Part shown: one piece after another, positions 3,932 to 7,126 of the stretch
How the letters are laid out: every line of letters starts with the position of its first letter
Position numbering within the stretch: the first letter of the stretch is position 1
Assembly: GCA_015272155.1 (NCBI GenBank)
Contig: JACYME010000123.1
Location: 1 to 41,686 of the forward strand
Direction: 5' to 3'
Length of the DNA: 41,686 bases
Source of the DNA: Leptolyngbyaceae cyanobacterium T60_A2020_046
GTDB lineage: Bacteria > Cyanobacteriota > Cyanobacteriia > Phormidesmidales > Phormidesmidaceae
Position numbers and translations under genes: made by a program
Notes under the pieces: model-generated
What the model saw: the letters and a program-made list of their open reading frames with translations, nothing else
The model's database searches: none
What the model was told of the DNA's origin: nothing

Positions 3932-4453
3932 ATGACCTGGGGGAAATTGTTACAGCCCGATGTGGTATTGGGCGAACCCGTGTTGGGGCTCACCCCCGAT
4001 CGCATTCGTGCCTATGATCTCGATGGCTTGATTTTGGACGTGGATGAAACCCTTGTTCCCCTTCGGGAAGCCCAAACTTCTCCAGAGGTGCAGACCTGGA
4101 TCAACCAGCTCAAGCCCTGTGTGTCGCTGTGGCTCGTGAGCAACAACCTAAATGAAAACCGCATCCGCCGTATTGGTGAAAGCATCGGCGTGCCCTATAT
4201 GACGGGGGCAGGTAAACCCTCGCGACGCAAACTCCGGCGCGCGGTGGAAGCGATGCAGATGCCCGTTGAGCGGGTGGCGATGGTGGGCGATCGCCTGTTT
4301 ACCGATGTCCTGGCGGGGAATCGGCTGGGCCTGTTTACCATCTTGGTAGAGCCGATGGTCAGCCCGATGGGAACCGCGAGTAAGCCCGTCGTGCGATCGC
4401 TCGAAGTCTGGCTCTCCCAACGGCTTGGGGTCTCGCTCCAATCCTCTCCCTAG
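3932..4453 (+). CDS. YqeG-family HAD IIIA-type phosphatase
   Basis: A 173-residue HAD-superfamily protein. Motif I is LDVDETLVP (nucleophile and acid/base Asp), motif II is VSNN, motif III is the Lys in GKPSRRKLRRA and motif IV is MVGDRLFTDVLAGNRLG. The combination and the short length without a large cap domain match the YqeG / class IIIA family, whose members include mitochondrial phosphatidylglycerophosphate phosphatases (Gep4/PTPMT-like role); in cyanobacteria a role in phosphatidylglycerol synthesis is plausible but unproven here. Its TAG stop lies in a CTAG that is also the stop of the convergent downstream gene, so the two coding regions share bases 4450-4453. Confidence 0.88.
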   Translation: MTWGKLLQPDVVLGEPVLGLTPDRIRAYDLDGLILDVDETLVPLREAQTSPEVQTWINQLKPCVSLWLVSNNLNENRIRRIGESIGVPYMTGAGKPSRRKLRRAVEAMQMPVERVAMVGDRLFTDVLAGNRLGLFTILVEPMVSPMGTASKPVVRSLEVWLSQRLGVSLQSSP

Positions 4454-4974
4454 TTCATCGGTAGATAGGTTGGCGCAACATTCTCGGGCCGATACCCAGC
4501 GGAGATACAGCGGCTAAGGGACTCATTGGTGCTCAGGTTTCCGGTTTCTGCCAGGCCCACCACACAGTCTGAGTAGCGCACGGGCAGCAGGCTGCGGTGG
4601 CAGCGGGTCAAAACCGCGCGCGAATCGGGAACGGGCAAAGCGTCGTGAATATTGGCCACGCAGGTCGCCACTTCGGGGGGACGCCGATCTCGACTACAGG
4701 CCGACAAGGCATCCCTCGGTGCGATCGCGCTGACCTCAGCCACCCTAGCCACACAGCCCGATACCTCCGTAGGGCGAAAGGCCAAGGCACAAGCGGCAGC
4801 GGCGGTTTCGCCATCAATGCCCAGGCCCACCAAGTCTGCCGCGCACCGACTGTAGTCATTCGCGATCGCCCGCGACGCCGTCAGTGGAGCCACGCCACCC
4901 ACTAGCAGCCCTGCGGTGATGATCTGTAGCGCAGACCACCGGATGCTTTTGAGAGACACAAGAGAATGAATCAT
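4450..4974 (-). CDS. Exported cysteine-repeat protein, function unknown
   Basis: Not a family I can name. Residues about 1-38 form a signal peptide ending near SRAIA, so the mature chain is predicted to be periplasmic or secreted. The mature part has eight cysteines in four tandem units of about 30 residues: Cys, then 17, 18, 19 or 18 residues, then Cys, then exactly 11 residues before the next unit's first Cys. The 11-residue stretches resemble each other (ALAFRPTEVSG, SRDRRPPEVAT, HRSLLPVRYSD, ISAGYRPENVA). The regular spacing suggests a small helical repeat with two cysteines per unit, probably disulfide bonded. I prefer the ATG at 4974 over an upstream in-frame TTG at 4980. The gene converges on yqeG with a shared stop region and is divergent from dxs. 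Confidence 0.7.
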   Translation of the reverse strand: MIHSLVSLKSIRWSALQIITAGLLVGGVAPLTASRAIANDYSRCAADLVGLGIDGETAAAACALAFRPTEVSGCVARVAEVSAIAPRDALSACSRDRRPPEVATCVANIHDALPVPDSRAVLTRCHRSLLPVRYSDCVVGLAETGNLSTNESLSRCISAGYRPENVAPTYLPMN

Positions 4975-5209: not shown

Positions 5210-7126
5210 ATGCATCTGAGTGACATAACTCATCCCAACCAGCTCCACGGGCTATCGATCCATCAGTTGGAGCAAATTGCCCGCCAAATTCGGGAAAAGC
5301 ACCTAGAAACCGTGGCTGCGAGTGGAGGGCACCTGGGGCCTGGGCTGGGCGTTGTGGAGTTGACCCTGGCGCTCTATCAAACCCTCGATCTTGATCGAGA
5401 CAAAGTCGTTTGGGATGTGGGCCACCAAGCCTACCCCCACAAACTCATTACCGGACGCTATAGCCAGTTTCATACCCTGCGGCAAAAGGACGGCGTGGCA
5501 GGCTACCTGAAACGATCGGAAAGCCGCTTTGACCACTTTGGCGCAGGCCACGCCTCTACCAGCATTTCTGCCGCGCTGGGCATGGCGCTTGCCCGTGATG
5601 CTCGGGGCGAAGACTTTAAAGTTGCTGCCATCATTGGCGATGGCGCATTGACAGGCGGCATGGCCTTAGAGGCTATCAACCACGCTGGACACTTGCCCCA
5701 CACCAACCTGTTGGTGGTGCTCAACGACAACGAAATGTCGATTTCGCCCAACGTGGGTGCAATTCCGCGCTACCTCAACAAGATGCGCCTCAGCCCACCG
5801 ATGCAGTTCCTCACAGATAACCTGGAGGAGCAGTTTAAGCATCTGCCCTTTGTGGGCGAGTCGCTCTCGCCAGAACTGAGTCGCGTCAAGGAGGGCATGA
5901 AGCGCCTTGCAGTGCCCAAAGTCGGCGCAGTGTTTGAAGAACTGGGCTTTACCTACATGGGGCCGGTGGATGGTCACAATTTGAGTGAACTGCTCGCCAC
6001 CTTCAAGGAAGCCCACAAAATTCAAGGGCCGGTGTTGGTGCATGTGGCGACGGTGAAGGGCAAGGGCTATGCGATCGCAGAGAAGGATCAGGTCGGCTAT
6101 CATGCCCAGTCTCCCTTTGACTTAACAACGGGCAAAGCCAAACCCTCCAAGACACCCAAACCACCTTCCTATTCCAAGGTTTTTGGCAATACCCTGACCA
6201 AGCTGGCGGAGGATAACCCCGCTGTGCTGGGCATCACGGCGGCCATGGCAACGGGCACGGGCCTCGATATTCTCTGCAAAAAGCTGCCCCAGCAATACAT
6301 TGATGTAGGGATTGCCGAGCAGCATGCGGTCACCCTGGCGGCGGGCCTCGCAGCGGAGGGCATGCGCCCAGTCGTGGCGATTTATTCCACCTTCCTCCAA
6401 CGCGCCTTTGACCAAATCATCCACGACGTGTGCATCCAAAAGCTGCCCGTGTTTTTCTGCCTCGATCGTGCGGGTATTGTGGGCGCAGACGGCCCCACCC
6501 ACCAAGGCATGTACGACATTGCCTATCTGCGATCGATCCCCAACATGGTGCTGATGGCTCCAAAGGACGAGGCTGAACTTCAGCGGATGATGGTCACGGG
6601 TATTGAGTACACTACCGGCCCAATCGCGATGCGTTATCCCCGAGGCAGTGGCGTCGGCGCACCGCTCATGGAAGAGGGCTGGGAACCTTTGCTCATTGGC
6701 AAAGCGGAGGTGTTGCGCCACGGTGACGATGTGCTGATTTTGGGCTATGGCTCGATGGTGTATCCGGCACTGCAAACGGCGGAAATCCTCAGCGAGCATG
6801 GTCTGGAAGCTACGGTGATCAACGCCCGCTTTGCAAAGCCCATTGATGAGGATCTGATTTTGCCTTTGGCCAAGCAGATTGGCCGTGTGGTGACGATGGA
6901 AGAGGGCTGTATTATGGGCGGCTTTGGCTCTGGGGTGGCAGAAGCGCTGCTAGATGCCCAAGTATCGGCGTCGGTGCTGCGGCTTGGTATTCCCGATGTG
7001 CTGGTGGATCATGCCACGCCGGATCAGTCTAAGGTGGAGCTGGGCTTGACGCCATCGCAAATGGCGGAGACGATTCTGGCTCGCTTTCAGGTTGGGCAAC
7101 CAGCTGTGAGCTTGCAGCAGTCTTAA
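5210..7126 (+). CDS. dxs: 1-deoxy-D-xylulose-5-phosphate synthase
   Basis: Dxs joins pyruvate and glyceraldehyde 3-phosphate, using thiamine diphosphate, in the first step of the MEP isoprenoid pathway that feeds carotenoids, the phytol chain and quinones. The 638-residue length is normal. Visible motifs: [10 protein letters not shown] with His41, GAGHASTS with His114, the ThDP motif GDGALTGG (143-150) leading to LNDNEMSIS, the glutamate of [13 protein letters not shown] (Glu370) and YPRG. The start [16 protein letters not shown] is as in other cyanobacterial Dxs proteins. It is a single-gene unit: a strong intrinsic-terminator-like palindrome follows the stop by about 60 bases, and the next gene converges on it. 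Confidence 0.98.

Follow-up and report, generated by a model that had tools for sequence, protein, structure and literature searches.

A conserved, putatively exported eight-cysteine repeat protein of Cyanobacteriia

The eight-cysteine gene, its neighbors and its distribution

We analyzed a 41,686-nucleotide stretch of DNA from Leptolyngbyaceae cyanobacterium T60_A2020_046 (contig JACYME010000123.1; hereafter, the window), in which a minus-strand open reading frame encodes a small protein with eight regularly placed cysteines (Table 1). Its ATG is aligned with the start of close homologs (MIHF/MVHF). The gene lies head-to-head with dxs, with which it has a 235-base upstream region in common, and a scan of this intergenic region for sigma70 promoters returned nothing. 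On the other side, a HAD-superfamily phosphatase gene converges on it, and the stop codons of the two genes overlap in the palindrome CTAG (4450-4453). No homolog of this phosphatase was found beside the eight-cysteine gene in the other loci read.

Table 1. Coordinates of the eight-cysteine gene, its predicted protein segments and its two neighbors in the window
Feature	Position	Strand	Description
CDS, exported (predicted) eight-cysteine protein	4450..4974	-	174 aa; ATG at 4974, stop 4450-4452
Putative Sec-type signal peptide, residues 1-38	4861..4974	-	Probable cleavage RAIA|NDY, site inferred; low pLDDT
Predicted hairpin 1, residues 39-64 (C44, C62)	4783..4860	-	Model helices 31-50, 55-64; register offset 1
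Connector 1-2, residues 65-67, before invariant P68	4774..4782	-	C62-x11-C74 invariant (157/157)
Predicted hairpin 2, residues 68-95 (C74, C93)	4690..4773	-	Model helices 68-82, 86-95; register offset 1
Connector 2-3, residues 96-98 (R97 R98 before P99)	4681..4689	-	C93-x11-C105 invariant
Predicted hairpin 3, residues 99-127 (C105, C125)	4594..4680	-	Model helices 99-112, 118-127; tip bears insertions in other species
Connector 3-4, residues 128-130 (SLL)	4585..4593	-	Inside conserved RSLLPxR(F/Y); C125-x11-C137 invariant
Predicted hairpin 4, residues 131-158 (C137, C156)	4501..4584	-	Model helices 131-143, 149-158; register offset 1
C-terminal tail, residues 159-174	4453..4500	-	Conserved P168 and aromatic 170; unstructured in model
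dxs (DXP synthase)	5210..7126	+	Divergent neighbor; Pfam PF13292, 2.8e-109
HAD-superfamily phosphatase gene	3932..4453	+	Convergent neighbor; Pfam PF13242, PF09419

When the surroundings of the gene were compared across cyanobacteria (121 loci, cited here by L numbers), the head-to-head partner changed by clade, and no conserved co-directional partner emerged in the loci read. The head-to-head neighbor is dxs in 22 of the 61 loci first read and in about 25 of the 121 overall, rpsD in 41/121, and petC-petA (Rieske protein and cytochrome f) in three (L096:270-1925, L106, and L107), the last being the sole photosynthetic partner seen among the divergent neighbors. On the opposite side, hetR—identified by the Pfam domains Peptidase_S48 and HetR_C—is convergent with the gene in 18 of the 121 loci. 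Most hetR-convergent loci have rpsD opposite, a stable rpsD / eight-cysteine gene / hetR arrangement. Family members convergent with hetR occur at L145:4842-5744 and at 28 further loci, some of them redundant, in HetR-carrying cyanobacteria (L111 is a Trichormus MAG). The Anabaena gene adjoining hetR is presumably all2340, of which we found no mention in the open literature searched; sll0446, guessed from the location of rpsD in Synechocystis, encodes an unrelated FtsA-domain protein and was rejected. Given that the neighbors vary between clades (dxs, rpsD, petC-petA), genomic context indicates no pathway, and the combination of a changing partner with a constant head-to-head geometry suggests clade-stable positions rather than a pathway operon.

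A protein search found relatives in 48 of 59 related genomes. Using a profile of 36 sequences, we detected relatives in 104 of 386 genomes sampled across the phylum—all in one class—and in 207 of 390 genomes sampled within the class, nearly always as a single copy. Several cyanobacterial families, one with very small genomes (about 1.6-3.0 Mb), lack the gene, and nothing convincing came up when 12 of the genomes lacking a match were searched under lenient settings. Its absence from several families argues against a part in a universal process. Plasmid and phage collections contained no relatives, and no other protein with a convincing unit was found when 39 genomes were searched with a profile of the repeat unit described below. 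At L124:9862-10143 (+), some 5 kb away from the complete gene in the same genome, we observed a partial second copy that comprises the last cysteines only and looks like a degraded duplicate. The homolog at L120:5836-6512 lies in two overlapping frames, split between the third and fourth cysteines, which probably reflects a frameshift or a sequencing error in a low-coverage MAG.

Cysteine pattern, repeat unit and export signal

The cysteines of the window protein stand at residues 44, 62, 74, 93, 105, 125, 137, and 156, giving spacings of 17-11-18-11-19-11-18. In a set of 157 distinct complete homologs, all eight are kept without exception, with exactly eight per mature region, and the three gaps of 11 residues (x11) are unvarying at each place (157/157). 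The other four spacings vary: that between the first and second cysteine is 17 in 154 of the 157 sequences, and that between the fifth and sixth ranges from 18 to 84. It is near certain that this pattern is real and exceeds chance. An earlier note on the same DNA had described a strict order of eight cysteines with 11-residue spacings four times over and a last unit lacking its closing cysteine. The order stands; the x11 spacing, however, is present three times, and the unit is C-x(17-19)-C, of which there are four complete copies separated by three x11 connectors.

From the cysteine spacing, the repeat period amounts to 30-32 residues. Profiles of units 2, 3, and 4 match one another with scores of 43.5, 37.3, and 26.8, versus maxima of 14.6, 21.5, and 13.0 in shuffled-column controls with the cysteines fixed. 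Unit 1 has diverged and clearly matches unit 2 only. Since the unit profiles outscore the cysteine-fixed shuffles, the fourfold repeat that had been proposed is a genuine tandem repeat whose first unit has diverged, and the homology of units 2-4 extends beyond the cysteines.

Along the protein, conservation measured as information content peaks in the connectors, namely at R97-R98-P99, at R127-S128-L129-L130-P131 together with R133 and aromatic residue 134, and at P68. Connector 2-3 is the most conserved element of all (R97 100%, R98 94%, P99 97%), and the C-terminal tail is conserved as well (Table 1). The lowest values fall on the tips of hairpins 2, 3, and 4. In the homolog alignment, we saw no motif that looks catalytic or binds metal.

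The N-terminus carries a hydrophobic stretch and an A-x-A site ahead of the NDY with which the mature part would begin, near N39. Both features recur across the homologs: an A-x-A-like site lies at most 28 residues from the first cysteine in 155/157, and a strongly hydrophobic 15-residue segment is present in 151/157. These counts bear out the signal peptide read by the earlier note and predict Sec export. That note had called the protein periplasmic; export agrees with our data, and the compartment is better given as periplasmic or thylakoid-lumenal, two locations inseparable by sequence. The same genome encodes a VKOR-domain protein (308-residue ORF), and the exported protein is therefore expected to be oxidized.

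Predicted fold, disulfide pairing and alternative readings

An AlphaFold2 model built with 40 sequences contains eight helices arranged as four hairpins (Table 1), the first helix extending back into the signal peptide. Most of the mature domain has ten-residue pLDDT means of 92-98; in the last hairpin helix, the mean is 85. The same four hairpins were predicted for a homolog with an 84-residue gap between the fifth and sixth cysteines (L121, from the filamentous cyanobacterium ESFC-1), where the added residues lengthen the helices of hairpin 3 and form a loop of low confidence at its tip. Large insertions are almost confined to this tip (L121:5962-6675; L122; L123). On the strength of these models, we have high confidence in a predicted fold of four repeated helical hairpins.

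To relate the cysteines to one another, we counted residues from each turn using the helix boundaries of the model, from which S-S proximity was deduced. By this helix register, the paired cysteines of each hairpin sit at matching heights, 6-8 residues from the turn and with an offset of 0 or 1 in all four pairs; the chance of such a register in all four is ~0.002. The x11 pairs are offset by 4 residues in 3/3 cases. The earlier note would have been refuted by a predicted structure that keeps the cysteines apart, and the register within the hairpins gives no sign of this. One disulfide per hairpin is favored by these offsets and by the invariance of C44 and C156, which pairing across the x11 gaps would strand; accepting the model, we consider intra-hairpin pairing quite likely. 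Cysteine-loss variants that could prove the pairing number 0 among the 157 homologs.

Searches of Pfam and NCBIfam returned no family at cut-off, PHROGs gave nothing significant, and the PDB sequence search gave chance matches only (ATPTB12, E 0.79; 7ydo, E 0.12). The earlier note could place the protein in no named family and would have yielded to a match with a described domain; these four resources contain neither such a match nor a sequence relative of solved structure. Hits to BcsB, FKBP_N_2, Gp37, DUF6184, YmcE, and Toxin_32 were all far under their curated cut-offs and inconsistent, and were dismissed. Foldseek with the model produced 0 matches at E <= 0.001. Structural comparison gave middling matches, with VIA Z scores of 9.3 and 8.9 to designed repeats (the highest to designed fibers) and of about 6-7.6 to TALE/mTERF, the latter with rmsd 3.2-6.8 Å; by the tool's own description, Z values in this range are usual for helical repeats.

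The absolute invariance of the x11 spacing could also be taken to mean a solenoid with disulfides across the connectors (C62-C74, C93-C105, C125-C137) and with C44 and C156 free or bonded to a partner. COA7 has been modeled with disulfides between cysteines 9 or 11 residues apart (PMC6505684), and in Hcp proteins the end of a repeat is disulfide-bonded to the beginning of the one that follows it (PMC3851747). In our model, however, the offset of all three x11 pairs corresponds to about 6 Å, the register favoring intra-hairpin bonds over an Hcp-type end-to-start connection, and two invariant cysteines, one at each end of the rod, would be left partnerless in 157/157 homologs; we regard this arrangement as unlikely. 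That all eight cysteines are invariant, in a compartment that is redox-active, would also suit a lumenal or periplasmic role as metal or cofactor ligands, redox relay or thiol reservoir. Such roles seem very improbable to us: the cysteines are evenly spread, each helix having one, CxxC, CxxCH and clustered motifs are lacking, and the even number of cysteines and their intra-hairpin register fit structural disulfides.

The protein might, moreover, be a highly diverged, Hcp-like member of the Sel1/TPR-like superfamily and no separate repeat type, being predicted to be exported and disulfide-rich, of a size near that of HcpB, and composed in the AlphaFold2 models of four alpha/alpha hairpins like those of Sel1-like repeats. 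Against this, no Sel1 match appeared in the window protein or in sets of 36 and 40 homologs at E-values up to 10, 1, and 0.1, nor any TPR Pfam match in the same two homolog sets at permissive E-values. The period of 30-32 residues also differs from the 36-38 that are usual for Sel1-like repeats (SLR; PF08238) (PMC3851747). Designed repeats and TALE/mTERF head the structural shortlist and solved SLR proteins are absent among the listed matches, observations that weigh against the superfamily and do not exclude it. On balance, we judge such membership quite improbable.

Proposed role and comparison with known systems

The reading we prefer, and hold to be somewhat probable, is that of a secreted, non-enzymatic, disulfide-stapled helical-repeat scaffold that binds an exported or membrane protein. 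Sec would export the protein, and the 136 residues left after removal of the signal peptide would form a short solenoid, a stack of four successive helix-turn-helix hairpins. One disulfide would pin the two helices of each hairpin (C44-C62, C74-C93, C105-C125, C137-C156), probably inserted by an oxidation system of the VKOR type. On the rigid rod so formed, the connectors of fixed length (RRP; RSLLPxR[FY]) and the tail at the C-terminus would make up a conserved edge. This edge would most likely bind another exported or membrane protein, which the rod would help to assemble or stabilize, be it in the periplasm or in the thylakoid lumen. A conserved Arg/Pro/hydrophobic edge on a rigid rod fits a protein-binding scaffold, a function for which we see the balance as about even.

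This is a conserved, usually single-copy protein of many cyanobacteria, putatively exported and without a family entry in the libraries searched; nor did the open literature searched yield a study of it. With its absolutely conserved cysteines, it could serve as a clean reporter of, or substrate for, disulfide formation in the thylakoid lumen and periplasm, a pathway that is poorly charted. Stable scaffolds might be modeled on its compact stapled repeat. Its gene adjoins well-studied loci (hetR, dxs, rpsD) in different clades.

Several known systems resemble the protein in part. TALE, mTERF, and designed helical repeats likewise consist of stacked two-helix repeats, but identity is 4-14% and there is no common cysteine pattern. 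In some homologs, the first 50-60 residues of the mature part give a weak match to DUF6184 (PF19682); the profile of this family also matches weakly in unrelated control genomes, and membership was rejected with a best score, among those scanned individually, of 16.6 against a cut-off of 25 bits and none above cut-off in 39 genomes. CHCH or twin Cx9C proteins are cysteine-stapled helical hairpins, as predicted here. They have two disulfides per hairpin, whereas we predict one, C-x17-19-C, four times over, and paired C-x9-C is not seen in our family, in which connectors are 11 residues long in 157/157 and all other spacings are at least 17.

Closer in design are HcpB and HcpC of Helicobacter (Sel1-like; PDB 1KLX, 1OUV), each an exported short alpha/alpha solenoid with one disulfide per repeat step. 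Their repeats are 36-38 residues long, compared with ~30 here, they carry the Sel1 signature that is missing here, and they come from a different phylum; moreover, their disulfides lie between repeats, unlike those predicted here within each hairpin, across a variable-length loop. COA7, a Sel1-repeat protein of the mitochondrial intermembrane space with five disulfides, is an assembly factor for respiratory complexes (PMC6505684). It combines, as is predicted here, disulfide-stapled helical repeats with the oxidizing compartment of an energy-converting membrane system. It differs in bonding cysteines 9 or 11 residues apart and has no sequence match with our protein. As a tentative extension, which we consider rather unlikely, the family could be a new class of ~30-residue stapled alpha/alpha solenoid repeat (C-x17-19-C hairpins, invariant x11 connectors) that is widespread in Cyanobacteriia and helps to assemble a photosynthetic or envelope complex in the lumen or periplasm, a counterpart of COA7 in principle. 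By sequence, the family is no member of the Sel1 repeats, yet it appears to have the Hcp/COA7 principle in common with them, realized—on the evidence of the model—through a different disulfide topology.
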